Origin: Nitratireductor luteus | GTDB taxonomy: Bacteria; Pseudomonadota; Alphaproteobacteria; Rhizobiales; Rhizobiaceae | Direction of reading: 5' to 3' | Assembly (NCBI RefSeq): GCF_026162365.1 | Contig: NZ_JAOANW010000008.1 | Span: 62,001 to 126,000, forward strand | Length of the DNA stretch: 64,000 nucleotides | In this document: positions 13,238 to 31,015 of the stretch, one piece after another | How the letters are laid out: every line of letters begins with the position of its first letter | How positions within the stretch are numbered: position 1 is the first letter of the stretch | Made by a program: the position numbers and the translations under genes | The notes under the pieces: model-generated | What the model saw: only the letters and a program-made list of their open reading frames with translations | Database searches by the model: none | Told to the model about the DNA's origin: nothing

Positions 13238-14323
13238 CTATCGGTTGGCCGAGAAGGTGAAGGCGCGCTGCAGCGCATACATCAGCCGGTCGAGCATGAA
13301 GCCGATGATGCCGATGGTCAGCACGGCAACCATGATCTTGGCGAGCGACTGCGAGGATCCGTTTTGGAACTCGTCCCACACGAACTTTCCGAGCCCAGGG
13401 TTCTGCGCCAGCATTTCCGCCGCGATCAGCACCATCCAGCCGACGCCGAGCGACAGGCGCAGGCCGGTGAAGATGAGCGGCAGCGCCGACGGCAGCACCA
13501 GCTTGGTGATGGTCTTGGCGGTCGGGAGCTGCAGCACGCGGCCGACATTCATCAGGTCCTTGTCGACCGAGGCCACGCCCAGCGCCGTGTTGATCAATGT
13601 CGGCCACAAAGAGCACAGCGTGACCGTGACGGCCGAGATCAGCAGCGACTTCGGCAGCCAATCGACCGTATCCACGTAAAGCGCCGAAATGATCATCGTC
13701 ACGATGGGCAGCCAGGCGAGCGGCGACACCGGCTTGAAGATCTGGATCAGCGGATTGATGGCCCCGTTCACCGTCTTTGAAAGGCCCGACGCAATGCCCA
13801 GCGGAACGGCGACGAGCGTGGCGATCAGGAAACCGAAGCCGACGGTGACCAGCGATGTGGCGATCTGGTCGAGATAGGTCGGTCGGCCGGTGTAATCGCG
13901 CCATTTGACCCGGTCCTCCCGACCGTCCGTGATGAGCTTGTCGTTGCGGGCTTTCTGGCGCTCGTGGAACTCCACCGCCTTCTGGCGCTCGGCCTTGTGG
14001 TCCTCCCACAGATTGACCGCCTGGTCCCACACCGCGACGGGGCCGGGTATGGCGCCCAGCGAAGTCTGCACCTGCGGCGCCAAAACGGCCCAGGCGGCGA
14101 TGAAAAGGCCGATGCCGATCAGCGGGATGACCAGCACGCGCTTGAGCTCTCCGGCCTGTTCACGCGGGTTGTCGCCGGCCGCGATCTTGAGGATCGGCGT
14201 CAGCCAGGAGAGCCCCAGCGCGTCGAGCCAGCCAGCCGCCTTGTTGATCCGTGTGAACAGGCGCTCCTTCCTGGCTTCGCGCTCGGCGCTCCTCGTGTCG
14301 ATTGCGTGGCTGGTGTCGGTCAT
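13238..14323 (-). CDS. nrtB: Nitrate/nitrite ABC transporter permease
   Basis: A 361-residue inner-membrane protein of the binding-protein-dependent permease family. The N-terminal 100 or so residues carry one membrane segment and a charged stretch (EDHKAERQKAVEFHERQKARND) that is longer than in cyanobacterial NrtB. The C-terminal part has the usual five to six helices and a coupling loop of EAA type around NVGRVLQLPTAKTI. Nine bases separate it from the ATPase gene and 36 bases from nrtA. It forms the channel of the nitrate importer. Confidence 0.93.
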   Translation of the reverse strand: MTDTSHAIDTRSAEREARKERLFTRINKAAGWLDALGLSWLTPILKIAAGDNPREQAGELKRVLVIPLIGIGLFIAAWAVLAPQVQTSLGAIPGPVAVWDQAVNLWEDHKAERQKAVEFHERQKARNDKLITDGREDRVKWRDYTGRPTYLDQIATSLVTVGFGFLIATLVAVPLGIASGLSKTVNGAINPLIQIFKPVSPLAWLPIVTMIISALYVDTVDWLPKSLLISAVTVTLCSLWPTLINTALGVASVDKDLMNVGRVLQLPTAKTITKLVLPSALPLIFTGLRLSLGVGWMVLIAAEMLAQNPGLGKFVWDEFQNGSSQSLAKIMVAVLTIGIIGFMLDRLMYALQRAFTFSANR

Positions 14324-14359
14324 GTCACGTCCTTGTGCGTTGGTTGGTCGGGCGGGAGG

Positions 14360-15757
14360 CTAGCCCCCCACGACCTCGGTGCCCTCCACCGTCTGGCCGG
14401 ACTTCAGGCCGATCGGCAGGGAATCGATGTAGGCGTTGGGTTTGCGGCCGTCATAGGCGACGCCGTCGATGATATCGGCGGCCGGCGTCGGCGCGCGGTA
14501 GCCGTCGGAATCCCAGGGGAAATCGGCCTCGTCCACGTGGCCTTCCTCGACCAGCATGCGCGCCGCTTCCAGATAGAGATCCGGGCGGTAGACCGACTTG
14601 GCCACCTCGTCGTACCAGCTATCCGGCCTGGTTTCGGAAATCTGGCCCCAGCGGCGCATCTGTGTGAGGTACCAGACGGCGTCCGAGTAGAAGGGGTAGG
14701 TCGCGAAATAGCGGTAGAACACGTTGAAATCGGGCACCGCGCGCTTGTCACCCTTCTCGTATTCGAAGGTTCCTGTCATCGAATTGGCGATCACCTCCGC
14801 GTCGGCACCGACATATTCGGGCTTCGACAGGATCTCGACCGCCTCCATCCGGTTGGCGTTGTCGTTCTCGTCAAGCCACTTGGCCGCGCGGATCAGCGCC
14901 TTAGTGATGGCGAGCGTGGTGTTGGGGTTTTCCTCGACGAACTCCGCGGTCAGACCGAACACTTTTTCGGGATTGTTTTTCCAGATCTCGTAGTCGGTGA
15001 TGACGGGAACGCCTATGCCCTTGAAGACGGCCTGCTGGTTCCATGGTTCGCCCACGCAATAGCCATGGATCGTGCCGGCCTCCAGCGTCGCCGGCATCTG
15101 CGGCGGCGGCGTCACCGAAAGCAGCGCCTCGGCCTTGATCTGGCCCGATGCGTCGGTCGGCGAATAGAAGCCCGGATGAATGCCGCCGGAGGCCAGCCAG
15201 TAACGCAGCTCGTAATTGTGGGTGGAGACGGGGAAGACCATTCCCATGTTGAAGGGCCTGCCTTCCGACCTGAACCGGTCGACCACCGGCTTCAGCGCAT
15301 CCGCCTTGATGGGATGCACCGGTTTGCCGTCCTCGACCGGGACGTGCTCCTTCATCATCTCCCAGACCTCGGTCGACACGGTGATGCCGTTGCCGTTGAG
15401 GTCCATGGAAAATGGCGTCACGATATGCGCTTCGGTACCGAAGCCAATCGTCGCGGCCAGCGGCTGACCCGCCAGCATATGCGCGCCGTCGAGTTCGCCG
15501 GTGATCACGCGATCGAGCAGCACTTTCCAGTTGGCCTGGGGTTCGAGCGTGACATAGAGACCTTCATCCTCGAAATAATGAAGCTCCTTGGCGACCGCCA
15601 GCGGCGCCATGTCGGTCAGCTTGATGAAACCGAAGGTCAGTTCGTCCTTCTCGACGTCGAGCATGTCCGCCTGGGCGGCCGATACGGCCATCCCCAGCAA
15701 GGCGGTGGCGCCGATCATCTTTCGCATCCCGGCCGAAGCCTTGAAAATTCCTGTCAT
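14360..15757 (-). CDS. nrtA: Nitrate/nitrite ABC transporter substrate-binding protein
   Basis: A 465-residue exported binding protein of the NrtA/CmpA type. The N-terminus has a signal peptide ending near AVSAAQA. The binding domain begins [20 protein letters not shown] and includes [29 protein letters not shown] and LRYWLASGG. The ATG at 15757 is used because AGGGAGA lies about seven bases before it. A longer frame reaches back to 15868 but would translate the terminator hairpin. It is the first gene of the nitrate operon, behind a structured leader. Confidence 0.95.
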
Positions 15758-15821
15758 CGCGGTCTCCCTGGAGGCTGCGCCGCTTGGGATCGGCGGTCCT
15801 CTTGGTTGATGTTGAGCCATG

Positions 15822-15885
15822 AAAAAAGGCTGCCGAAGATTTGCCGCGCCCCACATGGAAGCGCACAAACCCGTCCGGCAGCCTT
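15822..15885 (-). terminator. Intrinsic terminator in the nrtA leader
   Basis: Read on the minus strand, AAGGCTGCCG (15885-15876) pairs perfectly over ten bases with CGGCAGCCTT (15835-15826). The 3' arm runs straight into six T residues (15827-15822). The loop of 40 bases can itself fold. It lies wholly between the promoter and the nrtA start, so it should block the operon unless read-through is allowed. That is the layout expected for ANTAR-controlled antitermination. Confidence 0.85.
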
Positions 15886-15890
15886 GCCTG

Positions 15891-15936
15891 TGCGCCCTTC
15901 ATTGGACGCATCTTGTTGGTGTCCCCTCTGGACCCA
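15891..15936 (-). ncRNA. Two-hairpin ANTAR-type target in the nrtA leader RNA
   Basis: Hairpin 2 (15910-15891) is TGCGTCC / AATGAA / GGGCGCA. It has a seven-pair stem with one G-U pair and a six-base loop with A at position 1 and G at position 4, the rule for ANTAR-bound loops. Hairpin 1 (15936-15917) has TGGGTCC pairing with GGAC(A)CCA around a bulged A. Its loop AGAGG also has A1 and G4 but is five bases in this fold. The terminator starts five bases after hairpin 2. The nearby nasT supplies the ANTAR protein. Function is inferred from fold and position. Confidence 0.75.
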
Positions 15937-15946
15937 CAGAATACTA

Positions 15947-15962
15947 TGCAGAAACCGTGCCA
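15947..15962 (-). promoter_or_regulatory. Sigma-54 (-24/-12) promoter of the nitrate operon
   Basis: On the minus strand TGGCACGGTTTCTGCA matches the RpoN consensus TGGCAC-N5-TTGCA at all but one position. The invariant GG and GC are separated by exactly ten bases. Transcription would start near 15936, at the foot of ANTAR hairpin 1. Confidence 0.85.
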
Positions 15963-16070
15963 GTTTTTGGCAAGGACAAATTTCGTTTAATTATCAATGT
16001 GTTGATTTTTCCGGCCGGAAAGCGGGAGCTGGCGGCGGCGATGAGCGCCTGACCAAACCGGCATCGCAAT

Positions 16071-16085
16071 GCACAAATATTGTGC
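16071..16085. promoter_or_regulatory. NtrC-like dyad upstream of the nrtA promoter
   Basis: GCACAAATATTGTGC is a perfect GCAC-N7-GTGC dyad of NtrC-enhancer type. It lies about 140 bp upstream of the predicted start, a usual distance for an activator of sigma-54 RNA polymerase. A second, weaker half-site (GCAAAACTTGTGC) begins about 15 bp further upstream. The rest of the 377-bp gap between nrtA and nasS is AT-rich without a gene. Confidence 0.65.
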
Positions 16086-16134
16086 GACGCACTATGAAGA
16101 GCAAAACTTGTGCAAAGCCGATCGGTCCGGCGCG

Positions 16135-17373
16135 TCACGCTTCTTGCGCGGCGGCTCCCGCCTGGGCGGCGATATAGGCGTCGAGGGTGGCGGGGTCGAA
16201 AATGGCCCCATCGAAAAAGCCGTCCGGCCCCAGCACGAGCTTGCCCGCAGTCGCCCCCACCGGTGTCGGCACGGTCAACGCGCCTTCCACCTTCATGCTG
16301 GCCGATGGCATGGCACGGTCCAGCGGGGCCAGCGCCCGCCTGTAGATGTCCGGCCGATAGGAGGTTCTGGCCTTTTCAGCATTCTCGGCGCTATGGGGCA
16401 CCTGCCCCCAACGCACCATCTGGGAATAGAACCACAAGGCGTGGCTCTGCCAGGGGAAGGTCGCCGCCTTTCCCGCAGGCACGAAGAAGTCGGCTATTTC
16501 CGCGATCCCGCCACCCGTCTCGACCCGTCCTTCCAGAGCCCGCAGGAGGAGACCGACGGGCTTGTTCAGATAAGCCTCGCCAGCGAGAATTCCGGCGAGG
16601 TCTTCCCGATTCTCCGGCACAGCGCACCATTCGCCGGCGCAATAGAGAGCGCGGATGAGTGCCGCCAGCCTGTCCTCATGCGCCTCCGCCCAGTCGCGGC
16701 GCACGCCGAGCACCTTCTCGGGGCTGTTCTTCCAGATGGCCGCCTTCACGGTGACGATATGGCCGTGCCCGCCCGCGACGGCCACGCTGTTCCACGGCTC
16801 GCCGACGCAAAACCCGTCGATCCGCCCGGCAGCCAGGGCATCGGACATCAGGGGCGGCGGCACGACGGTGATTTCGACATCGCGTTCGGGATCTATCCCG
16901 CATGCGGCCAGCCAGTAACGGAGCTCGAAATTGTGCCCGGAGTGCGGATGGACGACGGCGAAGCACAACCGCTCCCCACCCCGCCCAGCGCGCCATGCGA
17001 TTATTTCCCGCAAGGCCGCGCCCGCAGAGGCCGGATCGTCAATGCCGCGCGCGCCCGCTTCCGCCATCCCCGCCCACAGCGCGTTGCCGACCGTCACCGC
17101 ATTGCCGCCCAACCCCAGCGACATGGGTGCGACGAGCGACAGCCGCATGGGGGTCAGGCCGAGATTGGCGGCAACGGGCATCGGCGCAAGCATATGCGCC
17201 ACATCGAAATGCCCGACCGCGACGCGGTCGCGGACATTCGCCCAGGAGGTCTCGCGCATCAGCGCAAGCTCTATGCCCTCCTCGGCGGCAAAGCCCCTCT
17301 CCCGCGCCGCAACCAGGATGGCGCTGTCGAGCAGGGGCAGGAAACCCGCGGTGATGTGATGGGTGGCGCTCAT
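16135..17373 (-). CDS. nasS: Cytoplasmic nitrate sensor, NrtA-like (NasS)
   Basis: This 412-residue protein is homologous to the binding protein NrtA (HFDVAHMLAPMPVAANLG, ELRYWLAACG, CVGEPWNSVAVAGG) but starts directly with MSATHHITAGFLPLLDSA and has no signal peptide. That is the hallmark of NasS. In Azotobacter, Paracoccus and Bradyrhizobium, NasS holds the antiterminator NasT until nitrate or nitrite binds. Its ATG overlaps the nasT stop by four bases, so the partners are co-translated. The C-terminus ends shortly before the regulatory region of nrtA. Confidence 0.92.
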   Translation of the reverse strand: MSATHHITAGFLPLLDSAILVAARERGFAAEEGIELALMRETSWANVRDRVAVGHFDVAHMLAPMPVAANLGLTPMRLSLVAPMSLGLGGNAVTVGNALWAGMAEAGARGIDDPASAGAALREIIAWRAGRGGERLCFAVVHPHSGHNFELRYWLAACGIDPERDVEITVVPPPLMSDALAAGRIDGFCVGEPWNSVAVAGGHGHIVTVKAAIWKNSPEKVLGVRRDWAEAHEDRLAALIRALYCAGEWCAVPENREDLAGILAGEAYLNKPVGLLLRALEGRVETGGGIAEIADFFVPAGKAATFPWQSHALWFYSQMVRWGQVPHSAENAEKARTSYRPDIYRRALAPLDRAMPSASMKVEGALTVPTPVGATAGKLVLGPDGFFDGAIFDPATLDAYIAAQAGAAAQEA

Positions 17374-17972
17374 GGCAGACCTCCTCCGTCGAGCAGGCCC
17401 GAAGCCACCACAAGGCTTTGGGCGATTTCGGAAATCTTGCGGTTCTGGTTCATCGCCGTGCGGCGCAAAAGCGCATAAGCCTCTTCCTCCGAAAGGCCCC
17501 GCGAACGCATGAGGATGCCCTTGGCCTTATCGATGATCTTGCGCGATTCGAGCGCGCTACGGGCCTCGTCCAACTCGCGGGACATGCGCGAGAAAGCGTT
17601 GAACCGGCTGATCGCCATGTCGAGGATGGGTTTCACCCGCTCCTGCCGCAACCCGTCGACCACATACGCGGAGACGCCGGCGTCCACGGCGGCCTCAATC
17701 GCCGCCTGGTCGGAGCGGTCGACGAACATGGCAATCGGCCGTTTGACCGCCCGCGACAGGTTGAACATGTTCTCCAGCATGTCGCGATTGGGATTTTCAA
17801 GATCGATGACGATGACGTCCGGTTCGATATCGGCGATGCGCCGGGCAATGGCGTTGACATCATGGACAATCGTGACGCGCTCATGCCCCGCCTCACGCAG
17901 GCCGGCCTCTATGATGGAGGCGCGCGGGCGGTTTTCGTCGATGACCAGTATGGAGAGAGAGCGCGAAGACAT
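17370..17972 (-). CDS. nasT: ANTAR-domain response regulator/antiterminator
   Basis: A 200-residue protein. The N-terminal receiver-like domain has ILVIDENRPRA and the candidate phospho-acceptor Asp in DVIVIDLENP. The C-terminal ANTAR RNA-binding domain has a coiled linker (MSRELDEARSALESRKIIDKAK) and AKGILMRSRGLSEEEAYALLR. NasT binds leader RNA and prevents termination in the nas operon; NasS keeps it inactive without nitrate. The ATG at 17972 is preferred; a GTG at 17993 would place the start inside the upstream palindrome. A matching two-hairpin target lies in front of nrtA. Confidence 0.93.
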   Translation of the reverse strand: MSSRSLSILVIDENRPRASIIEAGLREAGHERVTIVHDVNAIARRIADIEPDVIVIDLENPNRDMLENMFNLSRAVKRPIAMFVDRSDQAAIEAAVDAGVSAYVVDGLRQERVKPILDMAISRFNAFSRMSRELDEARSALESRKIIDKAKGILMRSRGLSEEEAYALLRRTAMNQNRKISEIAQSLVVASGLLDGGGLP

Positions 17973-17989
17973 GCTCTTATTTTGCGCAT

Positions 17990-18004
17990 GCACAATGATT
18001 GTGC
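17990..18004. promoter_or_regulatory. NtrC-like dyad immediately upstream of nasT
   Basis: GCACAATGATTGTGC is a GCAC-N7-GTGC dyad like the one before nrtA. It is embedded in a longer near-palindrome with TTGCGCA at both ends (about 17982-18013). It ends 17 bases from the nasT ATG. That position would fit direct control, perhaps repression or autogenous nitrogen control, rather than a distant enhancer. I see no clear sigma-54 element here. Confidence 0.5.
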
Positions 18005-18866: not shown

Positions 18867-21356
18867 CTAAAGCGACACGCGCCGCAGCCTGAGCGCGTTG
18901 GCGATCACGCTTACCGAGGACAGGCTCATGGCCGCCGCCGCGATCATCGGAGAAAGCAGCATGCCGAAGACGGGATAGAGAATGCCGGCCGCGATCGGCA
19001 CGCCAACGCCGTTGTAGATAAAGGCGAAGAACAGGTTCTGTTTGATGTTGCGGATGGTGGCCAGCGCCAGCTTGCGCGCCCGCACGATGCCGTTCAGATC
19101 GCCCTTTACCAGGGTGAGGCCGGCGCTTTCCATCGCAACGTCGGCGCCTGTGCCCATGGCGATGCCGACCTCGGCGGCGGCCAGCGCCGGCGCATCGTTG
19201 ACCCCGTCGCCGGCCATGGCGACGCGCGCTCCCTGCGCCCGCAGATCGTCAACAATCTTCTTCTTGTCCTCGGGCAGGACGTCGGCCCGCACCTCGTCGA
19301 TGCCCATCTTGGCCGCCACCGCCTGTGCCGTGCGCGCATTGTCGCCGGTGGCCATGATAATCCTCAGCCCCAGATCGTGCAGCGCGCGGATGGCCTCTGC
19401 AGCCGTTTCCTTGATCGGGTCCGCCACGGCGACAAGCCCGCCCGCCTTGCCGTCGATCGCGACATACATGGCGGTCTTGCCTTCGGCCTGTAGCGCTTCG
19501 ACGCGATCCTGGAGCCCGGAAATGTCGATACCCAGACCCTCCATCATCCCGCGATTGCCGAGCACCACCCGCTTGCCCGAAATCCGGCCCGAGACGCCCT
19601 TGCCGGTAACCGCTTCGAAGTCCTCGCTCGGGGACGTCTTCAGCCCCTCGGCTTCCGCGCCGGCGACGATGGCCTCGGCCAGCGGATGCTCGGAGCCGCG
19701 TTCGAGGCTCGCCGCCAATTGCAGGAGTTCCTGCCGATCCACGCCTTCCACCGTCACCACGTCCGACAGTTTCGGCCTGCCCTCGGTCAAGGTTCCGGTC
19801 TTGTCCACGATCAGCGTGTCGACGCGCGAGAAGCGCTCCAGCGCCTCGGCGTCGCGGATGAGAACGCCGGCCTGCGCTCCCCTGCCCGTCGCCGTCATGA
19901 CCGACATAGGTGTCGCCAGGCCGAGCGCGCACGGGCAGGCGATGATGAGCACCGAGACTGCCGCCACAATGGCATGGATCATGGCCGGCTGCGGCCCCAC
20001 CAGCGCCCATATGACGAACGCAATGACAGCCACCAGGACGACCGCCGGAACGAAATAGGCGGCGACCCGGTCGGCCATGCCCTGGATCGGAGCGCGCGAT
20101 CGCTGGGCCGAAGCCACCATCTCCACGATGCGCGCCAGCATCGTATCCGCACCGACCTTCTCGGCGCGCACGATGAGCGAGCCGTTCTTGTTGAGCGTGC
20201 CGCCGGTGACGTCGTCTCCGGCCTGCTTTTCGACCGGAATGGGTTCTCCGCTGATCATGGACTCGTCGACTGAAGATCGTCCCTCCTCGACCACACCGTC
20301 GACCGGCACGCTTTCGCCCGGCCGCACGCGGATGAGATCGCCGACGACAACCTCCTCCAGCGGCACGTCCTGTTCGCTACCGTCGTCGGATATGCGCCGC
20401 GCGGTCTTGGGCGACAGATCGAGCAGCGCGCGGATGGCCGAACCCGTGCGTTCACGCGCCTTGAGCTCCAGAACCTGGCCAAGGAACACCAGCGTGACAA
20501 TGACGGAGGCCGCCTCGAAGTAGACCGGGACCGTGCCGCCATGCGTGCGGAAGGAAGGCGGAAATGCGTGCGGAAAGAGTGTCGCCACGACGCTGTAGCC
20601 ATAGGCCGCCCCGACACCGATCGCGATCAGCGTCCACATGTTGGGGCTGCGGTTGACGATGGACTGCCAGCCGCGCTTGAAGAATGGCTTGGCCGCCCAC
20701 AGCACCACCGGCGTGGCAAGCACAAGCTCGGCCCACGCCGCAACCTGATCTCCCAGCCACTGGCGGACAGGCAGGCCCACCATCGACCCCATGGCGATGA
20801 CGAGCAGTGGCAGGGAAAGCGCAGCGCTGACCCAGAAGCGGCGGGTGAAGTCGACCAATTCCGGGTTCGGCCCCTCCTCACCCGTGGGCACGCCCATCGG
20901 TTCCAGCGCCATGCCGCATTTGGGGCAGTCGCCCGGCTTATCGCTGACCACTTCAGGATGCATGGGACAGGTGTATTTCGTGCCTTCCGGCATCGGTTCG
21001 CGCGCTGGTCTTTCGGCCAGATAGCCTGCCGGATCGGCCTTGAACTTTTCCAGGCAACGCGCCGAGCAGAAGTAAAAGCCCTCGCCTTCATGGCGGAAAA
21101 AATGCCTGGCGGTGGCCCGGTCGACGCTCATGCCGCAGACCGGGTCCCTCGCCTCGATATAGGCCTCCGGCTCCTTGGCAAACTTGTCACGGCAGGACTG
21201 GCTGCAGAAATGGAACAGATGCCCGCCGTGCTCATGCGACGGTTTTCCGCTATCCGGATCGACCGTCATACCGCAGACGGGATCGCGTATGACGGTGTCC
21301 TTCAACAGGCCGCTCTCATTCTCATGTGTTCCGCAACAATGCGCGTCTTGTGACAT
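18867..21356 (-). CDS. Copper-translocating P-type ATPase with YHS domains
   Basis: An 829-residue inner-membrane P1B-type ATPase. The N-terminus is unusual: two YHS-type metal-binding modules ([10 protein letters not shown]...FCSQSC and [10 protein letters not shown]...FCSARC) and a heavy-metal-binding domain (YTCPMHPEV...CPKCGM). The transmembrane part has the CPC motif in [13 protein letters not shown], and the catalytic core has DKTGTLTEG and [13 protein letters not shown] and the context indicate Cu(I)/Ag(I) export. The ATG at 21356 has GGAG eight bases upstream. A MerR-family type promoter directly precedes it; the regulator gene is not in the window. Confidence 0.94.
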
Positions 21357-21403
21357 TCCCGCTGCTCCATTCACATAGGCGATTCAGGTCGCCGACTTGC
21401 ATG

Positions 21404-21438: not shown

Positions 21439-22143
21439 TTAGTTGATATCCGCTTTTTTGTCGGACCGGGCCTCGGCGAGGAGCCTCGAAAAACTCGTCG
21501 TCAGATGGGCGCGCCGCACATGGCCGACGGCGGAAAGATCGGCGCTTTCGATCGCCAGCATCACATCGCGCATTTCGCGCTGGAAGGATTCGACCTCAAG
21601 ACGCAGCATGTCGCGATAGTGGTCGAAGCGCGATGCCGTCTTCAGCCAGATGCGTGTCGTCTGGAAGTAGAGCCGCTCAGAGATGTCGCGCAGCGGTTCG
21701 TTTGCCGTAAGCCGAAGGATGAGCTGGAAGAAATCCATGTTCAGGCGGGCAAATTCGCGCGCGTCGAGCCTCGAGGCCAGCTCGGCGCATCTGGCCTCCA
21801 TTTCGAACAGTTCGTTGAGCATCGCTTGGTCAGGCGGGACCGGCATGAGCTTGCCGATCAGTTCGGCCAGTTCGATGCGCAGGCGGTAGACCTGGGAGAG
21901 TTCCTCAATGTCGATGTCGGTGACAATGGTTCCGACCCCGTGCACCGACCACAGCAGGCCCTCATCCTCAAGCCGCGCCAGGACGCGGCGGATAGGTGTG
22001 CGGCTGGTGTGAAACTCCTCCGCCAGATCCTCCTCGCGCAGCCGCCTTCCGGGCGGATAGTCGAGGAGGCAGATACGTTTGCGCAGCGTTGCGTAGATGC
22101 GCTCGTAGCGGGCGCGTGCATCGCTGGCGGGGATATCGGTCAT
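21439..22143 (-). CDS. GntR family transcriptional regulator, FCD type
   Basis: A 234-residue regulator. A winged helix-turn-helix (IYATLRKRICLLDYPPGRRLREEDLAEEFHTSRTPIRRVLARLEDEG, split here by the wing) fills the first 80 residues. An all-helical FCD ligand-binding domain follows. The ATG at 22143 overlaps the stop of the upstream deacetylase gene by four bases, so regulator and enzyme are co-translated. It probably controls the adjacent ectoine-type genes. The known ectoine regulator EnuR is a MocR-type GntR protein with an aminotransferase domain, so this one is of another subfamily. The ligand is unknown. Confidence 0.88.
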   Translation of the reverse strand: MTDIPASDARARYERIYATLRKRICLLDYPPGRRLREEDLAEEFHTSRTPIRRVLARLEDEGLLWSVHGVGTIVTDIDIEELSQVYRLRIELAELIGKLMPVPPDQAMLNELFEMEARCAELASRLDAREFARLNMDFFQLILRLTANEPLRDISERLYFQTTRIWLKTASRFDHYRDMLRLEVESFQREMRDVMLAIESADLSAVGHVRRAHLTTSFSRLLAEARSDKKADIN

Positions 22144-23300
22144 CGGACCAGTTGAGCCGACAGCCGCTCGAGCATGCCGAGGCATGCGTCGAGCTGCTCG
22201 AGGGAAATGAACTCGTCCGGCTTGTGCGCCTGCTCTATGGAGCCCGGACCGCAGATCACGGCCGATATGCCTGCGGTCTGGAACAAACCCGCCTCCGTGC
22301 CGAACGCGACGACTTCCGCCTCACTGAGGCCGGTAAGCTCCGACACAATACGCCGCGCTTCCGACTGAGCGGCGGGCTCCAGCCCCTCCACCTCGCCGAT
22401 CACCTGCGTGACGATATCGGCCTCGGCATGGACGGCCTGCATCGCCGGACGCAGAACCTCGTCCACATAAGCCTGGATATTGTTCTTGACGAAAGCGGCG
22501 TCGGCATCGGCCACCGGCCGCATTTCCCATTCGACGCTGGCATGGCTGGCAATCACGTTGCGGGCCGACCCGCCATCGAAGCGGCCGACCTGCAGCGTCG
22601 TCCAGGGCGGGCTGAAGCGGTTGGACTTCGCCGCCCGCTCCTTCAGCTCCTCGGACAGCGCCATCAGCCGCGAGATGTAGCGCACGGCATATTCGATTGC
22701 GTTGACCCCGCGGTCGGGATCGGAGGCGTGTCCCGCGCGGCCGCGAAATTCCGTCGTGTATTCGTAGCAACCCTTGTGCCCTTCGATGATGCGCATCAGG
22801 GTCGGCTCGCCGATAATGGCGGCGGACGGGCGCAGATCCATCCGCTCCAGTTCGCTCACCAGCGTACGCGCGCCCAGGCACCCGACCTCCTCGTCATAGG
22901 TGAAGGCAAAATGCAGCGGGCGCTTCAGCTCGAGCGCAGCGAAATCCGGCGCCTTGGCCAGGCAGCAGGCGATGAAGCCCTTCATGTCGCATGTTCCGCG
23001 CCCATAGAGCCGGCCATCGGCCTCGCGCAGCACGAAGGGATCACTGGACCAGTTCTGGCCCACCACCGGCACCACATCCGAATGTCCCGAAAGGACGATG
23101 CCGCCGTCGCCCTCGGGTCCCAGCGTGGCGAAAAGATTGGCCTTGGTGCCGCTCTCGTCGCGCATGATGGAGATGCGCGCGCCCACTTCCGACATCAGTT
23201 CGGTGGCGTAGGCGATCAGTTCGAGATTGCTGTCGGCCGATATGGTCGGAAACGCGACCAGCTCGGCCAGGATGTCGCGGGCGCGCGCAAGCGTGGCCAT
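22140..23300 (-). CDS. ArgE-like M20 N-acetyl amino acid deacetylase
   Basis: This 386-residue M20 metallohydrolase has the length and motifs of acetylornithine deacetylase: LSGHSDVVP with the metal His, YGRGTCDMKGF with the bridging Asp, and TYDEEVGCLGA with the catalytic and metal-binding Glu pair. It lies one base after eutD/doeA in the same direction. In ectoine breakdown the hydrolase yields N-alpha-acetyl-L-2,4-diaminobutyrate, a one-carbon-shorter homologue of acetylornithine, and EutE/DoeB (an M14-type enzyme) normally removes the acetyl group. No M14 enzyme is present here, so this protein may fill that step. The alternative is ordinary ArgE. Confidence 0.88.
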   Translation of the reverse strand: MATLARARDILAELVAFPTISADSNLELIAYATELMSEVGARISIMRDESGTKANLFATLGPEGDGGIVLSGHSDVVPVVGQNWSSDPFVLREADGRLYGRGTCDMKGFIACCLAKAPDFAALELKRPLHFAFTYDEEVGCLGARTLVSELERMDLRPSAAIIGEPTLMRIIEGHKGCYEYTTEFRGRAGHASDPDRGVNAIEYAVRYISRLMALSEELKERAAKSNRFSPPWTTLQVGRFDGGSARNVIASHASVEWEMRPVADADAAFVKNNIQAYVDEVLRPAMQAVHAEADIVTQVIGEVEGLEPAAQSEARRIVSELTGLSEAEVVAFGTEAGLFQTAGISAVICGPGSIEQAHKPDEFISLEQLDACLGMLERLSAQLVR

Positions 23301-23301
23301 G

Positions 23302-24486
23302 TCAGTCCTTCACGATCAGTTCGCGAGGCCGGCGGCAGAGCGCCTCGGCCGGCCCTTCGTCCTTAATGAGAATGCTTTCGGTGATTTCCAGGCCCCAATC
23401 GGCCATCCACAGGCCCGGCATGAAGTGAAAGGTCATGCCCGCCTCAAGGACGGTTTCGTCCTCGCGGCGCAGCGAGATCGTGCGCTCGCCCCAATCGGGC
23501 GGATAGGAAATGCCGATCGCATAGCCGCAGCGCCCGTCGCGCTTGATGCCGGCCCGTTCCAGCGCGCCGTAAAGCGCATCGGCCACCTGCCCCGCACGGT
23601 TGCCCGCTTTGGCGATCTCAAGTCCGGATTCGATGCCCTCCACCAGCGCCTTCTCCGCATCCAGCATGTATTGCGGCGGCTTGCCGAGGAACACGGTGCG
23701 GCAGAGCGGCGCGTGATAGCGTCGGTAGCAGCCGGCGATCTCGAAGAACGTTGCCGAACCCTGCTCGAAACGGCGGCTATCCCAGGTCAGGTGCGGTGCG
23801 GCGGCATCCGAGCCCGTCGGCAGCAGCGGCACGATGGCCGGATACTCGCCCCAGTCGTCGTCGACGCCGCGAATGGCGTCGCCGTAGATTTCGGCCACCA
23901 GATCATTCTTCTTCAGCCCCGGTTCGATGCGTTCGACGATGCCGTCTATCATCTTTTCGGAAATGCGCGCGGCGCGGCGCATGAAGATGATTTCCTCCTC
24001 GGATTTGACCGCCCGCTGCCAGTTCACGAGCGCGGTGGCATCCACGAACTTGGCGTCCGGGAGTTCCTCCTTCAGAACCAGATAGGCCTTGGCGGAGAAG
24101 TAGTAGTTTTCCAATTCCACGCCGACGCGCTGATTGGCATAGCCATAGGCGCGAATGATCTCGGCCAGGTGCTGCATGGGATGCAGCGTGGTGGCCTGTA
24201 TGTAGTGATCCGGATAACGCAGCACGCGCTCGTCATCCATGTAGACGGTGCGCACGGCGCCATTGCCGTCCATCGCCCGTCCCCACCAGATTGGATCCTG
24301 ATCCTTGAAGACGAGCACGCCCTGGTGGACGTAGAAGGACCAGCCGTCATAGCCCGTCAGCCAGGCCATGTTGGACGGATCCTCGACGAACAGAATATCG
24401 ATTCCTTTCGCCTCCATGGCCCTGCGGGTTTTATCCAAGCGCTGGGCGTATTCCAGAGCGGTAAAGGGCAATGCGACTGCTGGCAT
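23302..24486 (-). CDS. eutD: Ectoine hydrolase (EutD/DoeA), M24 family
   Basis: A 394-residue creatinase/M24-fold protein. Segments shared with DoeA/EutD are DPSNMAWLTGYDGWSFYVHQ near residue 38, GALRTVYM-like NGAVRTVYMDDE, YPDHYIQAT, LVNWQRAVKSEEE, YPAIVPLLPTG, PHLTWD, SATFFEIAGCYRRYHAPL, YPPDWGERT and MTFHFMPGLW. The enzyme opens the ectoine ring to acetyl-diaminobutyrates in the cytoplasm. It starts the minus-strand unit eutD-argE-like-gntR and is divergent from eutB. The gene name rests on remembered family similarity, not on a search. Confidence 0.87.
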   Translation of the reverse strand: MPAVALPFTALEYAQRLDKTRRAMEAKGIDILFVEDPSNMAWLTGYDGWSFYVHQGVLVFKDQDPIWWGRAMDGNGAVRTVYMDDERVLRYPDHYIQATTLHPMQHLAEIIRAYGYANQRVGVELENYYFSAKAYLVLKEELPDAKFVDATALVNWQRAVKSEEEIIFMRRAARISEKMIDGIVERIEPGLKKNDLVAEIYGDAIRGVDDDWGEYPAIVPLLPTGSDAAAPHLTWDSRRFEQGSATFFEIAGCYRRYHAPLCRTVFLGKPPQYMLDAEKALVEGIESGLEIAKAGNRAGQVADALYGALERAGIKRDGRCGYAIGISYPPDWGERTISLRREDETVLEAGMTFHFMPGLWMADWGLEITESILIKDEGPAEALCRRPRELIVKD

Positions 24487-24537
24487 ATAAGACCTCCAAA
24501 GGCCGGCGCGACGTGATTCCGCCGGGTACTTTCGCAG

Positions 24538-24547
24538 TTGTATACAA
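24538..24547. promoter_or_regulatory. Candidate GntR operator 1
   Basis: TTGTATACAA is a perfect palindrome of the GT-N2-AC type bound by FCD-class GntR regulators. It lies 51 bp before the eutD start in the 200-bp divergent region. A near copy is at 24632. Confidence 0.5.
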
Positions 24548-24631
24548 ATTGGTGAGCGTCACCCATAATGAATGCGTCATTCCCTGTCGTAATAGCGATT
24601 GCGCAGGCATCGTGATCGCTTCTATCCTGAG

Positions 24632-24641
24632 ATGTGTACAA
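24632..24641. promoter_or_regulatory. Candidate GntR operator 2
   Basis: ATGTGTACAA repeats the TGTNTACAA pattern of the site at 24538 with 94 bp between site starts, 45 bp before the eutB start. Two sites near the two divergent starts would let one regulator control both units. No other gene is seen in this region. Confidence 0.45.
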
Positions 24642-24686
24642 ATCGCTCTTTCCGGAAACCGTTATGCAGATGGAGGATCTTCCCGC

Positions 24687-25697
24687 GTGACGCTTGCCCT
24701 TGCCGACATCATCGCTGCGCGGCGCGCTATTGCCGGCATCGCCAGCCTCGACACGCCGCTGGTCCCCTCACCTTATCTGAGTGCCAGGATGGGCACCGAC
24801 ATCCACCTGAAGCTGGAGATCGGCCAGGCCACGGGCGCGTTTAAGCTGCGCGGCGCCGCCAATGCTGCGGAGAACCTGCCGGAGGACGTGCCGGGCGTCA
24901 CCTGCTGCTCGACCGGCAATCACGGGCGGGCCGTCGCCTATGCCGCTCGCATCCGCGGACTGCGCGCCGTCATCTGCATGTCGAAGCTCGTGCCGAAGGC
25001 CAAAATCCAGGGGATCGAGGCGCTGGGCGCGGAGGCGCGCATTGTCGGCCGCAGCCAGGACGAAGCGCAAATCGAGGCGACACGCCTCGTCGAAGAAGAA
25101 GGGTTTGCCGAAATCTCGCCTTTCGACGGGCCGGCGGTGATTGCCGGCCAAGGCACCATCGGCCTTGAGCTGATCGAGCAATGCCCAGAACTGACGACCG
25201 TTCTCATACCGCTGTCGGGCGGCGGGTTGGCCGGCGGCGTCGCATTCGCGCTGAAAAGCATGAAACCTTCCATCCGCGTCATCGGCGTGACCATGGAAAA
25301 CGGCGCGGCCATGCATGCGGCCCTCGCAGCAGGCAAGCCTGTGCCGGTCGAGGAAGTACCGAGCCTTGCCGATTCGCTCGGCGGCGGCATCGGCAGCGCC
25401 AACACGCACACTTTCGCGCTCTGCCGGGATTATCTGGACGAGATCGTGCTGGTTTCCGAAAGCGACATCTATCGCGCGATGCAGACGCATTATTTCGAGG
25501 ACCGCATCGTCTGCGAAGGGGCAAGCGCCGTCGGCGCGGCAGCGCTCCTTAGCGGCCGCGTGCGCGATCCCAGGGGCCCGGCGGCGACCATCATCACCGG
25601 ACGCAATGTCGACATGTCCGTTTTCACCGACATCGTCAACGGCCGCGACGTGAGGCTCGGCGACACGACACTTGAAGGACAAGCCTATGCCGCGTGA
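24687..25697 (+). CDS. eutB: EutB-like threonine dehydratase family protein (hydroxyectoine utilisation)
   Basis: This 336-residue fold-type II PLP enzyme has the PLP Lys in TGAFKLRGAAN (Lys 53). STGNHGRAVAYAAR and the glycine loop LSGGGLAGG follow. The ending with TGRNVDMSVFT is typical of EutB. EutB proteins take part in turning hydroxyectoine into ectoine, together with EutA and EutC. The GTG start has GGAGG nine bases upstream; the open frame extends further but lacks family similarity there. EutA is not found nearby. It overlaps eutC by 11 bases. Confidence 0.85.
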   Translation: MTLALADIIAARRAIAGIASLDTPLVPSPYLSARMGTDIHLKLEIGQATGAFKLRGAANAAENLPEDVPGVTCCSTGNHGRAVAYAARIRGLRAVICMSKLVPKAKIQGIEALGAEARIVGRSQDEAQIEATRLVEEEGFAEISPFDGPAVIAGQGTIGLELIEQCPELTTVLIPLSGGGLAGGVAFALKSMKPSIRVIGVTMENGAAMHAALAAGKPVPVEEVPSLADSLGGGIGSANTHTFALCRDYLDEIVLVSESDIYRAMQTHYFEDRIVCEGASAVGAAALLSGRVRDPRGPAATIITGRNVDMSVFTDIVNGRDVRLGDTTLEGQAYAA

Positions 25698-26679
25698 CAT
25701 CTTCATCCTCACCGAGGCAGAGCTTCGCAAGACCGTCGAGCTCGACGCCAGAGCGGTCGATGTGGTGGAAAAGGCCTTCGCGGCCCTCGGCACCGGCAAG
25801 GTCGTCATGCCGCCGATCCTGTCCATGGCCATCCCCGAGGCCAATGGCGAGGTGGACGTGAAGACGGCCTATATTCCCGGCTTCGACGGCTTCGCGATCA
25901 AGGTCAGCCCCGGTTTCTTCGACAATCCAAAGCTCGGCCTGCCAAGCCTCAACGGGCTGATGATCCTGTTTTCCGCCAGGACCGGGCTGGTGGAAGCGCT
26001 GCTGCTCGACAATGGCTACCTCACCGACATACGTACCGCCGCCGCCGGCGCCGTCGCCGCCAGGCATCTGGCTCCGCAAAAGGTGGAAACCGCCGGCGTT
26101 TTCGGCACCGGCGTACAGGCGCGCCTGCAGATGGAGGCGGCGCATCTCGCGCGGCCCTTCCGCAAGGCGCTGGTCTGGGGCCGCGATCAGGCGAAGGCGG
26201 AAGCCTGCGCCCGCGATATTGCGGAAAGGCTGGGAATAGAGGTCGTCGCCGAAGAGGATCCGGAAAAAGTGGTCGCCGAAAGCCAGCTCGTCGTCACCAC
26301 CACCCCGGCCGAGGAGCCGATCTTCAAGGCCGACTGGCTGCATCCGGGCCTTCACATCACCGCCATGGGCTCCGACCAGGAAGGCAAGAACGAGATCGAT
26401 CCGGCCGCGCTTGCCAAGGCCGACATCTTCGCCTGCGACCGCGTCAGCCAGTGCGAAAAGCTTGGTGAGCTGCGCTCCGCGATCGCCGCCGGCCTTTGGA
26501 ACAGGGAAGCCCCGCCGGAACTGGGTGAAATCGTGGGCGGTGCAAAGAAGGGACGGGAAAGCGACCACCAGGTGACGATCTGCGACCTGACGGGCACCGG
26601 CGCGCAGGATACTGCCATCGCAACCTATGCGCTGGAGATGGCGCGCAAGGCGGGCGCGGGCAGCGTTATCCGGAGCTGA
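25687..26679 (+). CDS. eutC: EutC-like ornithine cyclodeaminase/mu-crystallin family protein
   Basis: A 330-residue protein of the OCD/mu-crystallin family. The substrate region includes KVSPGFFDNP and LPSLNGLMI, and the NAD-binding Rossmann motif is GVFGTGVQARLQ near residue 140. The ATG at 25687 has AAGGA seven bases upstream and overlaps the eutB end. EutC is one of the three proteins linked to hydroxyectoine conversion; the reaction it performs is not well defined. An alternative reading is a general amino acid dehydrogenase or cyclodeaminase. Confidence 0.83.
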   Translation: MPRDIFILTEAELRKTVELDARAVDVVEKAFAALGTGKVVMPPILSMAIPEANGEVDVKTAYIPGFDGFAIKVSPGFFDNPKLGLPSLNGLMILFSARTGLVEALLLDNGYLTDIRTAAAGAVAARHLAPQKVETAGVFGTGVQARLQMEAAHLARPFRKALVWGRDQAKAEACARDIAERLGIEVVAEEDPEKVVAESQLVVTTTPAEEPIFKADWLHPGLHITAMGSDQEGKNEIDPAALAKADIFACDRVSQCEKLGELRSAIAAGLWNREAPPELGEIVGGAKKGRESDHQVTICDLTGTGAQDTAIATYALEMARKAGAGSVIRS

Positions 26680-26749: not shown

Positions 26750-27235
26750 ATGCTGAAGCTCGACGACCGCGACCTCAAGATCCTAGCCATCCTGCAGAAG
26801 GAAGGCCGCATATCCAAGGCCGCGCTCGCCGAACGGGTGAACCTGACGCCGGCCCCCTGCTGGGAACGCCTCCAACGGTTGGAAAAGGCGGGCGTGATCA
26901 CCGGATACCGGGCGGAAGTGGCCATCAACAAGCTGGCCCCGCATATCCTGGTTTTCATGGCGGCGGAACTGGAAGGCCATCGCGCTGAAAATTTCCAGCT
27001 TTTCGAGCGAGCCGTCCAGAACATCGACGAGATCGTGGGGTGCTGGGCGGTCGGCGGCGGCTTCGATTACATCCTCCAGATAGTGGCCCGCGACATCGAC
27101 ACCTATCAGCGCCTCGTCGACCATCTCCTGGAGGCGCATCTGGGGCTGGTCCGCTATTTCACCTATATCGTCACCAAGCCCGTAAAGCGCCCCGGCGCGA
27201 TTCCGCTCGACATGCTCATGTCCGAGCCCGAGTAA
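26750..27235 (+). CDS. Lrp/AsnC family regulator (DoeX-like)
   Basis: A 161-residue feast/famine regulator. A helix-turn-helix (LKILAILQKEGRISKAALAERVNLTPAPCWERLQRLEKAG, split here) fills the first 60 residues and a RAM effector domain follows (GCWAVGGGFDYILQIVARD). The ATG at 26750 starts the family-typical MLKLDDRD. Ectoine clusters in Halomonas and Ruegeria carry an AsnC-type gene (doeX/asnC) at the same relative place, so a role in sensing a pathway intermediate is likely. The 139-bp gap that follows probably holds the promoter of the dehydrogenase gene. Confidence 0.86.
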   Translation: MLKLDDRDLKILAILQKEGRISKAALAERVNLTPAPCWERLQRLEKAGVITGYRAEVAINKLAPHILVFMAAELEGHRAENFQLFERAVQNIDEIVGCWAVGGGFDYILQIVARDIDTYQRLVDHLLEAHLGLVRYFTYIVTKPVKRPGAIPLDMLMSEPE

Positions 27236-27374: not shown

Positions 27375-28865
27375 ATGTCAGCTTTTGCAGCACTTCAGAA
27401 AACCTCCCTTGCAGCGCTCAACGATCCGCGGCTTTTCCGCGAATACGCCTATGTCAACGGCCATTGGGTCGCCGGCGATGGCGACATGCAGATCGACGTG
27501 ACCAATCCGGCCGATGGCGCGCGGCTTGGCTCCGTTCCGATGCTCAGCGCCGCGCAGGCCGAAGCCGCGATCGAGGCCGCGCGCGGGGCCTTTCCGGCAT
27601 GGGCCGCCCTTGCCCCGCAGAAGCGGACCGAAATCCTCAAACGCTGGCACGGCCTGATCATGGCCGCGCGCGAGGACCTCGCCCATCTGATGGTGCTGGA
27701 GCAGGGCAAACCGCTTTCGGAAGCGCGCGGCGAGATCGATTATGCCGCTTCCTTCGTCGAGTTCTACGCCGAGGAAGCCAAGCGCGTGAACGTGGAGGGC
27801 ATCACCTCCCACCTGCCCGATGCCGACATGCAGGTGAGCCGCGAGCCCGCCGGCGTCGCCGGCCTCGTCACGCCGTGGAACTTCCCCTCCGCCATGCTCA
27901 CCCGCAAGGCGGCGGCAGCGCTTGCCGCCGGCTGCACGGTGGTCGCCCATCCCTCGTCGGAGACGCCGTTCTCGGCGCTGGCGCTGGCCGAACTGGCCGA
28001 GCGTGCCGGCTTCCCCGCCGGCGTCTTCAACATCCTGACGGGCAAAGCCACTGAAGTGGTCGGCGCCATGACTGCCTCCCGCCATGTCCGCGTCCTGTCC
28101 TTCACCGGATCCACCGAAATCGGCCGGCTGCTCTATGGACAGTCGGCGCCGACGGTGAAGAAGCTCGTGATGGAACTGGGCGGTCACGCGCCCTTCATCG
28201 TCTTCGCCGATTGCGACCTGGAGCGTGCAGTGGAAAGCGCGATGACGGCGAAATTCGCGACTTCCGGCCAGGATTGCCTCGCCGCCAACCGGCTCTATGT
28301 CGAGCGGCCGGTCTATGACGCCTTCGTGGCGGCGTTCGCCCGCAAGGTGCGCGCCTTGAAGGTCGGCAACGGGCTGACCGATCCCGATATCGGCGCGCTC
28401 ATCCATGGCCGCGCCGTGGCCAAGCAGGAAGAGCATGTAGCCGACGCGCTGGAAAAGGGTGCCCACCTCGTCACCGGCGGCAAGCGCCACAAGGCGGGCG
28501 AGAACTTCTTCGAGCCGACCGTGCTGGCCGACGTGCCGGCGGATGCGCTGATCTTCCACGAGGAAACCTTCGGTCCCGTCGCCGCCATCGCCGCCTTCGA
28601 CAGCGAGGACGAGGTCGTCGCTCGCGCCAACGACACCGAAACGGGGCTGGTGGCCTACCTGCACACCCAGGACCCCTCGCGCATCGCCCGCGTCTCGCGG
28701 GCGCTCGAATTCGGCATGGTGGCCATCAACCGCACCAAGATCACCGGCGCCCCGATCCCCTTCGGCGGGGTGAAGCAGGCCGGGCTCGGGCGCGAAGGCT
28801 CGCGCCACGGGCTGGAGGCCTACACCAATATCAAATATGTCTGCCGCGACATCGCGCGGGACTGA
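27375..28865 (+). CDS. NAD(P)-dependent aldehyde dehydrogenase (DoeC-like aspartate-semialdehyde/succinate-semialdehyde dehydrogenase)
   Basis: A 496-residue ALDH of the succinate-semialdehyde group. The active-site Glu is in MELGGHAP (Glu 267) and the nucleophile in SGQDCLAANR (Cys 301); TPWNFP and FTGSTEIG bind cofactor. In ectoine breakdown the equivalent enzyme (DoeC/Ssd) oxidises L-aspartate-beta-semialdehyde to aspartate. That is the product expected from the aminotransferase encoded 70 bp downstream. Assignment to this step rests on context, because the sequence alone would allow succinate semialdehyde. Confidence 0.88.
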   Translation: MSAFAALQKTSLAALNDPRLFREYAYVNGHWVAGDGDMQIDVTNPADGARLGSVPMLSAAQAEAAIEAARGAFPAWAALAPQKRTEILKRWHGLIMAAREDLAHLMVLEQGKPLSEARGEIDYAASFVEFYAEEAKRVNVEGITSHLPDADMQVSREPAGVAGLVTPWNFPSAMLTRKAAAALAAGCTVVAHPSSETPFSALALAELAERAGFPAGVFNILTGKATEVVGAMTASRHVRVLSFTGSTEIGRLLYGQSAPTVKKLVMELGGHAPFIVFADCDLERAVESAMTAKFATSGQDCLAANRLYVERPVYDAFVAAFARKVRALKVGNGLTDPDIGALIHGRAVAKQEEHVADALEKGAHLVTGGKRHKAGENFFEPTVLADVPADALIFHEETFGPVAAIAAFDSEDEVVARANDTETGLVAYLHTQDPSRIARVSRALEFGMVAINRTKITGAPIPFGGVKQAGLGREGSRHGLEAYTNIKYVCRDIARD

Positions 28866-28934
28866 AATCGACCGGAGCATGGCGGGATGGCCAAACGCCA
28901 TCCCGATCTGGCCGCTGATACAAGGAGAAGAAAA

Positions 28935-30308
28935 ATGCTTTTGAAGAACGACCAGCTGGATCAGTGGGACCGGGATAATTTCTTCCACCCCTCGACCCAC
29001 CTCGCCCAGCACGCGCGTGGTGAAAGCCCAAGCCGCATCGTCACCGGCGGTTCCGGCGTCTATATCGAGGACCGCGACGGCAACCGCCTGCTCGACGCCT
29101 TTGCCGGCCTTTACTGCGTCAATGTCGGCTACGGCCGCAGCGAGATCGCCGATGCCATCGCAAGCCAGGCCAAGGAGCTGGCCTATTACCATGCCTATGT
29201 GGGCCATGGCACGGAAGCCTCGATCACCCTTGCCAAGATGATCCTCGACCGGGCGCCGAAGAACATGTCGAAAGTCTATTTCGGCCTTGGCGGATCGGAT
29301 GCCAACGAGACCAATGTCAAGCTGATCTGGTACTACAACAACATCCTGGGCCGGCCGGAGAAGAAGAAGATCATCTCGCGCTGGCGCGGGTATCACGGGT
29401 CGGGTCTTGTGACCGGATCGCTGACGGGGCTCGAACTCTTCCACAAGAAGTTCGACCTGCCGCTGGCGCAGATCCTGCACACGGAAGCCCCCTACTACTA
29501 CCGCCGTCCCAAGGACGACATGAGCGAGGAAGAGTTCTCCGCCCATTGCGCGGCCGAGCTCGAGGCGCTGATCGAGCGCGAGGGCGCCGACACCATCGCC
29601 GCCTTCATCGGCGAGCCGGTGCTTGGCACCGGCGGCATCGTGCCGCCGCCCGCGGGCTACTGGGCAGCGATCCAGAAGGTGCTGAGAAAGCACGACATCC
29701 TGCTGGTCGCCGACGAGGTCGTCACCGGCTTCGGCCGCCTCGGCTCCATGTTCGGCTCGCTGCACTACGACATCGAGCCCGACCTGATCACAATCGCCAA
29801 GGGCCTGACTTCGGCCTACGCCCCGCTGTCTGGCTCCATCGTCGGCAAGAAGATGTGGGAGATTCTGGAAAAAGGCACCGACGAGAACGGCCCCATCGGC
29901 CATGGCTGGACCTATTCGGCCCATCCTATCGGCGCCGCCGCCGGCATCGCCAATCTGAAGCTGGTGGACAGCATGGGCCTCGTCGAGAATGCCGGCAAGA
30001 CCGGCAGCTATTTCGTCAACGCCATGCGTGACGCCATCGGCGGCCATGCCCATGTCGGCGATGTGCGCGGCGAAGGCATGCTGTGCGCCATTGAGTTCGT
30101 CGAGAACAAGGAAAAGCGCAAGTTCTTCGACGCTTCGCGGAAGATCGGCCCCCAGATGGCGGCCGCCACGCTAGAGAACGGCGTCATCGGCCGGGCCATG
30201 CCGCAGGGCGACATCCTCGGCTTTGCCCCGCCGCTCTGCCTGACGCGCGAGGAAGCCGACAAGGTGGTGGACGCGACGGCCAAGGCCGTGAAGAAAGTCC
30301 TGGCATAA
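28935..30308 (+). CDS. Class III aminotransferase (DoeD-like diaminobutyrate transaminase)
   Basis: A 457-residue fold-type I PLP enzyme. The PLP Lys is in LITIAKGLTSAYAPL (about residue 289), LLVADEVVTGFGRLG holds the Asp that binds the pyridine ring, and FGLGGSDANETNVKL is near residue 115. The ATG at 28935 follows AAGGAG with eight bases between; the longer frame from 28887 is not needed. In the ectoine pathway DoeD/Atf converts L-2,4-diaminobutyrate to aspartate semialdehyde. Relatives also use beta-alanine, putrescine or taurine-like amines. Confidence 0.88.
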   Translation: MLLKNDQLDQWDRDNFFHPSTHLAQHARGESPSRIVTGGSGVYIEDRDGNRLLDAFAGLYCVNVGYGRSEIADAIASQAKELAYYHAYVGHGTEASITLAKMILDRAPKNMSKVYFGLGGSDANETNVKLIWYYNNILGRPEKKKIISRWRGYHGSGLVTGSLTGLELFHKKFDLPLAQILHTEAPYYYRRPKDDMSEEEFSAHCAAELEALIEREGADTIAAFIGEPVLGTGGIVPPPAGYWAAIQKVLRKHDILLVADEVVTGFGRLGSMFGSLHYDIEPDLITIAKGLTSAYAPLSGSIVGKKMWEILEKGTDENGPIGHGWTYSAHPIGAAAGIANLKLVDSMGLVENAGKTGSYFVNAMRDAIGGHAHVGDVRGEGMLCAIEFVENKEKRKFFDASRKIGPQMAAATLENGVIGRAMPQGDILGFAPPLCLTREEADKVVDATAKAVKKVLA

Positions 30309-30364: not shown

Positions 30365-31015
30365 ATGAACAAACCCGTCCTGCACAATTATTTCCGCTCC
30401 TCGACATCGTACCGCGTGCGCATCGCGCTGGAGATGAAGGGCATCGACTACGACTACGAGGCGCTTCACCTGCGCCATGGCGAGCATCGCGGACAGGCCT
30501 ATCTGTCGGTCAATCCGCAGGGCCTCGTTCCGGTGCTCGTCTGGACCGACGGAACGATGGTGTCGCAATCGCTCGCGATCATGGAATTTCTGGAAGACGT
30601 GGCGCCCGAACCCGCACTGCTGCCGTCCGATCCGGCCGGCCGCGCACGCGTGCGCATGCTGTCCCAGATGATCGGCTGCGACATCCATCCACTCAACAAT
30701 CTGCGTGTGCTGGGAGCGTTGCGCGAGCGTTTCGGCGCCGACGACGCGGCGGTCGGCGACTGGTTCCGCCATTGGGTGGCCGAGACGTTCCGGCCGATGG
30801 AGACGATGCTGGCGAAAGATCCCCGCACCGGCACCTTCTGCCACGGCGAAACGCCGGGCATGGCCGATATCTGCCTCGTCGCGCAGGTCACCAACAACAA
30901 GCGCTTCGACGTCGACATGACGCCCTACCCGGCGCTTCGCAGAATCCACGAAGCCTGCATGGCGCTGGAGCCTTTCGGCAAAGCGGCCCCGGCCAACCAG
31001 CCGGACGCCGAATAG
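30365..31015 (+). CDS. Glutathione S-transferase family protein, zeta class (maleylacetoacetate isomerase-like)
   Basis: A 216-residue GST. The thioredoxin-fold N-terminus has the zeta-class active-site motif SSTSYRVRIAL (residues 12-22) and the glutathione-binding VNPQGLVPVL and SQSLAIMEFL. The helical C-terminal domain includes TPGMADICLVAQV. Zeta-class enzymes isomerise maleylacetoacetate in tyrosine breakdown, but no homogentisate genes are in the window. It follows the ectoine-type aminotransferase in the same direction, so it may be part of that cluster with an unknown role, or separately transcribed. Confidence 0.88.
   Translation: MNKPVLHNYFRSSTSYRVRIALEMKGIDYDYEALHLRHGEHRGQAYLSVNPQGLVPVLVWTDGTMVSQSLAIMEFLEDVAPEPALLPSDPAGRARVRMLSQMIGCDIHPLNNLRVLGALRERFGADDAAVGDWFRHWVAETFRPMETMLAKDPRTGTFCHGETPGMADICLVAQVTNNKRFDVDMTPYPALRRIHEACMALEPFGKAAPANQPDAE

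Follow-up and report, generated by a model that had tools for sequence, protein, structure and literature searches.

Which enzyme takes the acetyl group off ring-opened ectoine where the catabolic genes are present and the recognized deacetylase, EutE/DoeB, is missing? The question is raised by 64,000 nucleotides of Nitratireductor luteus (RefSeq assembly GCF_026162365.1, contig NZ_JAOANW010000008.1, positions 62,001 to 126,000, forward strand; hereafter the window, whose coordinates are used below), in which the gene for the ectoine hydrolase EutD/DoeA is followed by one for an ArgE-like protein of family M20. Judged from sequence and gene context, this M20 protein very probably performs the EutE/DoeB step, as a non-orthologous replacement of the M14-family EutE, and our best reading of the surveys below is that the replacement is widespread in Hyphomicrobiales and in some Rhodobacterales. 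EutD would open the ring of ectoine to give N-alpha-acetyl-L-2,4-diaminobutyrate (alpha-ADABA), and the M20 protein, as a metal-dependent amidohydrolase of ArgE type, would cleave the acetyl amide to give acetate and diaminobutyrate, which an aminotransferase and a dehydrogenase would then convert to aspartate. The replacement would resemble acetylornithine deacetylase, the usual substrate of which has one methylene more than alpha-ADABA; the hydroxyectoine product is presumably used as well.

The M20 protein scores 491.5 bits on NF005710 (cut-off 412) and 403.6 bits on TIGR01892, the curated equivalog model for ArgE (cut-off 297.7), and carries the Pfam domains Peptidase_M20 and M20_dimer. 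Residues H73, D75, D105, E137, E138, E165, and H359, which we take to be the metal-binding and catalytic positions of M20 enzymes, are invariant across an alignment of 40 sequences and identical in Escherichia coli ArgE. An AlphaFold2 model (mean predicted local distance difference test score 92; predicted template modeling score 0.87) finds its top PDB match in E. coli ArgE (8uw6; template modeling score 0.86, 33% identity); ArgE as described in the available passages of PMC11270798 is in open forms, with substrate absent. The host genome (4.92 Mb in 45 contigs, 99.94% complete) yields no match to the EutE model TIGR02994 at E ≤ 1; the window enzyme, being an M20 protein, falls outside the M14 membership that this model sets at 402.7 bits. 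Nor does any host protein exceed the cut-off of the AstE/AspA M14 model, for which the best match is at chance level (E = 0.54). TIGR01892 gives 11 matches in the same genome, among which the window M20 is the only one over the cut-off, and ArgJ is present over its own. Since ArgJ regenerates ornithine without ArgE and so makes the latter dispensable, the host would not need ArgE for arginine synthesis. A reading made from the sequence alone had proposed that an M20 enzyme stands in for EutE here, and had suggested searching the genome for an M14 EutE and for a second argE; both searches come out in favor of that proposal.

The M20 gene belongs to a divergent ectoine catabolic cluster, with EutD, the M20 protein, and a GntR/FCD regulator on the reverse strand, and the genes from EutB to the aminotransferase on the forward strand:

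21439..22143, reverse strand: GntR/FCD regulator (the longer open reading frame 21439-22185 exceeds the cut-offs of PF00392 and PF07729)
22140..23300, reverse strand: M20 (ArgE-like) deacetylase, 386 aa, putative N-alpha-acetyl-L-2,4-diaminobutyrate deacetylase replacing EutE/DoeB (NF005710, TIGR01892, Pfam)
23302..24486, reverse strand: EutD/DoeA, ectoine hydrolase of family M24, 394 aa (TIGR02993, 622.7 bits; cut-off 613)
24487..24686: 200-bp region separating the divergent genes eutD and eutB, with a presumed promoter role
24687..25697, forward strand: EutB, threonine-dehydratase-like (TIGR02991, 417.8 bits; cut-off 413.35)
25672..26679, forward strand: EutC, cyclodeaminase-like (TIGR02992, 493.3 bits; cut-off 471.65)
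26750..27235, forward strand: Lrp/AsnC regulator, DoeX-type by position (exceeds the cut-offs of PF13412 and PF01037)
27375..28865, forward strand: aldehyde dehydrogenase, DoeC/Ssd-type by position (PF00171)
28887..30308, forward strand: class-III aminotransferase, DoeD/Atf-type by position (PF00202; NF005684 over cut-off)

EutD, EutB, and EutC all exceed curated cut-offs, which places the cluster among the eut/doe systems, whereas the likeness of the Lrp protein, dehydrogenase, and aminotransferase to DoeX, DoeC, and DoeD is one of position and family; the top NCBIfam match of the dehydrogenase is a succinate-semialdehyde dehydrogenase model, under that model's cut-off. A single base, C at 23301, separates the EutD stop from the M20 start, as the sequence-only reading had it, and the M20 stop shares four nucleotides (ATGA) with the start of the GntR/FCD gene, an arrangement in which the three genes may well be co-transcribed.

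The pairing is far from peculiar to this host. Of the 80 loci whose EutD most resembles that of the window, 64 have a match of at least 57% identity to the window M20 (the threshold for orthologous M20s hereafter) that starts 0-181 bp past EutD in the same orientation; one of the 64 (L045) is cut by a contig end. In none of the 80 stretches does tblastn with one EutE query at E ≤ 1e-5 find EutE. A GntR homologue adjoins the M20 gene in 45 of these 64 loci, which also contain EutB, EutC, and the aminotransferase (52 each), Lrp (48), and the dehydrogenase (46), some stretches being short. In two sets of genomes reached via the nearest loci, EutE over cut-off occurs in 0/24 and 1/49, the exception being Maritimibacter sp. 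55A14. The orthologous M20 is present in all 24 genomes of the first set, including seven of Roseovarius type in which it lies outside the EutD stretch. In the Roseovarius-type loci L165, L167-L170, L172, and L173 the orthologous M20 stands away from EutD, and inspection by eye of three gene-called 4-kb stretches (L165, L168, and L173) showed no ectoine genes beside it.

In an order-wide sample of 297 genomes, EutD homologues (E ≤ 1e-80) occur in 97, and at the 83 strong EutD loci (at least 590 bits) an M14 EutE is nearby in 36, an orthologous M20 in 22, a more distant M20 in 6, and neither in 19; no locus has both. The M20 of the 22 loci occupies the same slot and strand as EutE does elsewhere, with match ends 4-149 bp apart, while the six distant M20s are directly downstream of EutD in five cases and upstream and opposite in one. 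By genome, the orthologous M20 is found in 27 of the 297, all 27 of which have a EutD homologue (Fisher p = 5e-15, uncorrected for kinship); it adjoins EutD in 24 and lies apart in G133, G012, and G204. The sole EutD homologue of G133, as of G283, scores far below the cut-off for EutD; in G204 the M20 match is partial. The 97 genomes with EutD divide into 26 with M20 only, 42 with EutE only, 28 with neither, and one with both (Fisher p for exclusion = 1.4e-7, again uncorrected for kinship); the last, G224, is the sole genome with M20 and EutE over cut-off, and its two EutD loci differ, the M14 gene following one and the M20 gene the other. The survey of eutD neighborhoods that the sequence-only reading had recommended thus upholds its pairing, in 64/80 nearest and 22/83 strong order loci and never with an M14 EutE at one locus. 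Its description of a variant ectoine pathway can be widened, the M20 type being no isolated case but a common alternative form.

Phylogeny sets these M20s apart. In a quick tree, the 79 distinct rows of at least 57% identity form one clade with top support in the Shimodaira-Hasegawa-like approximate likelihood ratio test, whose sister comprises 25/27 background ArgE-like rows, five slot-occupying distant M20s falling outside both; the root is unsure, E. coli ArgE being a very long branch. In the EutD tree, 67 of the 69 M20-paired EutDs fall in one clade (support 99), as do the 17 remaining rows from the nearest set. Members of the M20 clade are nevertheless paired with EutDs outside the main EutD clade in G127 and G242, and in G283 with a EutD homologue 42% identical to that of the window, while a Mesorhizobium plasmid carries, in this order, a MocR-type regulator, doeA, and an argE whose product is 62.8% identical to the window M20 and is annotated in the record as ornithine biosynthesis. 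That the clade recurs beside such different partners is the strongest indication that it has a function here. In G012, the EutD, elsewhere in the genome, groups near M14-type EutDs, and EutE is without a match at E ≤ 1e-40. Opposite the orthologous M20 of G012 (L138:3410-6728) are a doeD-type aminotransferase, which exceeds the cut-off of its family, and a gene that is Lrp-like by eye, for which an NCBIfam search at 1e-60 gave no match. Residues E180 and F333 are constant in 79/79 clade M20s, in 5/5 slot-occupying distant M20s, and in 3/3 other M20s near EutD, compared with 2/27 (E180) and 5/27 (F333) background ArgE-like rows; this constancy may be ancestral rather than convergent.

The distant M20s are worth describing in their own right. 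Five loci of one genus (L127-L131, in G273, G239, G197, G084, and G119) have one, 44-47% identical to the window M20, between eutD and a doeC-type gene, in a collinear order eutB-eutC-eutD-M20-doeC-doeD-lrp-type from which EutE over cut-off is absent. We lean toward the view that M20s took over the ectoine deacetylase step at least twice in alphaproteobacteria, once in the window clade and once in the distant M20 of this genus, both from an ArgE-like pool, and that ectoine consumers counted by eutD-eutE pairs have consequently been undercounted. Elsewhere, distant M20s precede EutD-like paralogues of 38-39% identity in L140 and L141 (G036 and G144), which possibly belong to a different imino-acid pathway. 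On Pantoea and Klebsiella plasmids (L210 and L211), an M20 annotated argE and about 48% identical sits outside any ectoine cluster, with RidA, DUF1028, ATP-binding cassette (ABC) transporter, glutathione S-transferase, and dehydroquinate dehydratase genes as neighbors.

Several observations weigh against assigning the EutE step to the M20 protein. The curated models themselves name it acetylornithine deacetylase. Sixteen of the 80 nearest loci have no M20 after EutD, although two of these (L065 and L079) end less than 300 bp from EutD, and all seven of the 16 genomes that were checked hold an orthologous M20 elsewhere. M14 matches to the EutE model at E ≤ 1e-20 occur in 7 of the 24 and 13 of the 49 genomes, the latter including the sole one over cut-off; the M14 homologues of the other 19 of 73 genomes, all below the EutE cut-off, could act as the deacetylase. 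The Nitratireductor genomes tested follow this pattern, with no EutE over cut-off and, in some, M14 homologues of 190-285 bits. In the order sample, the 19 strong loci with neither enzyme (L107-L125) remained so when rechecked by tblastn on fetched stretches, one (G038) being cut 250 bp past EutD; G037 and G068 have EutE at another EutD, and G012 and G204 an orthologous M20 elsewhere. By these criteria 28/97 EutD genomes also have neither deacetylase, six of them with a distant M20 near EutD. Because so many EutD loci and genomes have neither, EutD evidently demands neither deacetylase. Two records bear separate mention: at L122 (read by eye, as was L114) EutD stands beside gyrB, and in an Alisedimentitalea plasmid record a EutD of 64.5% identity has no deacetylase annotated alongside. 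Finally, PMC13188858 made EutE, with EutB, a condition of follow-up and yet includes Nitratireductor and Roseovarius EutD; its authors may regard some protein of these genomes as EutE.

The labels and the fold would suit an ordinary ArgE of arginine synthesis that merely happens to be located in an ectoine cluster: the equivalog cut-off of TIGR01892 is exceeded and E. coli ArgE is the closest fold. We consider this very unlikely, as an arginine gene would be expected neither to accompany EutD in 27/27 genomes nor to come close to excluding EutE, ArgJ over cut-off leaves ArgE dispensable, and the M20 clade is separate from the order's other sampled ArgE-like proteins. Somewhat harder to set aside, though still improbable, is a role in the ectoine pathway on another substrate, such as gamma-ADABA or a hydroxyectoine product, an unrecognized enzyme taking alpha-ADABA. 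The cluster does contain EutB and EutC, which are linked to the use of hydroxyectoine, and H. elongata EutD yields both ADABA isomers (PMC5924519, in the passages available). These considerations are countered by the position of the M20 gene in the EutE slot and the mutual exclusion of the two, and by EutB and EutC each being present in just 52/64 M20-type loci, even allowing for the short stretches. In addition, ArgE-type enzymes catalyze N-alpha deacetylation.

It is least credible of all that the neighborhood reflects chance or hitch-hiking with no functional link. Related genomes do share gene order by descent, and the statistics above ignore kinship; the pairing, however, recurs with different EutD lineages and regulators, the MocR type of the Mesorhizobium plasmid among them, and a distant M20 fills the same slot at five loci of one genus. 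Deacetylation of alpha-ADABA by the M20 protein stands as the preferred reading.

No ectoine transporter was seen inside the cluster of the window, but a different contig of the host encodes EhuB, a component of the ABC transporter for ectoine, with a score over cut-off; the Chelativorans cluster L014 includes ehuA and ehuB over cut-off. Beyond the cluster, a maleylacetoacetate isomerase (30365-31015, forward strand; TIGR01262 over cut-off) directly follows the doeD-type gene. On the reverse strand, 13238-17993 holds parts of a nitrate/CmpA-type ABC transporter with an ANTAR-type regulator, and 18867-21374 a P-type ATPase of copper type whose N terminus bears two YHS-like repeats, each judged by eye.

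Earlier work is cited here from the passages available to us. DoeB is assigned to family M14 by Schwibbert et al., who also report that alpha-ADABA accumulates on deletion of doeB (PMC3187862). Existing censuses differ in how they would meet the M20 type: the set of 363 genomes of Mais (2020) was compiled from juxtaposed eutD and eutE (according to PMC8739950), the older count of 539 EutD orthologues by Schulz (2017) was made with EutD alone as query (according to PMC5924519), and PMC13188858 pursued genomes in which EutE and EutB were both present. The last assigns Nitratireductor and Roseovarius EutD, with their transporters, to a separate clade C, the passages leaving the deacetylase without comment, and the terms argE, acetylornithine, and M20 do not occur in its main text as available. 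In the open-access literature we found no description of an M20 or ArgE protein replacing EutE, and no paper in which "ectoine hydrolase" and "acetylornithine deacetylase" appear together; databases label the M20 as an arginine-synthesis enzyme, as in the argE of ornithine synthesis of the Mesorhizobium record. Ectoine is a widespread nutrient in sea and soil, and if the reading proposed here is true, counts of eutD-eutE pairs would miss a large M20-type alphaproteobacterial group or call it incomplete. The reported EutD-EutE bi-module is concerned as well: should EutE aid product release from EutD, an unrelated partner ought to do likewise or be paired with a EutD that requires no help.

AbgB, like the window protein, is presumably of M20 type. 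In putative ectoine clusters of Bacillota it occurs where eutE is absent (PMC13188858), a likeness tempered by its different phylum and subfamily and by passages that assign it no role. With EutE/DoeB (M14, TIGR02994, EC 3.5.1.125) the window M20 shares its position after EutD, its presumed reaction, and its pathway context, but the two belong to unrelated families and are never found together at one locus. With ArgE (TIGR01892; E. coli ArgE, 7rsf and 8uw6) it shares family, metal-site residues, fold, and a presumed N-alpha deacetylation chemistry; it differs in lying within an ectoine cluster of a genome that has ArgJ, in forming a clade of its own, and in a presumed substrate one methylene shorter.

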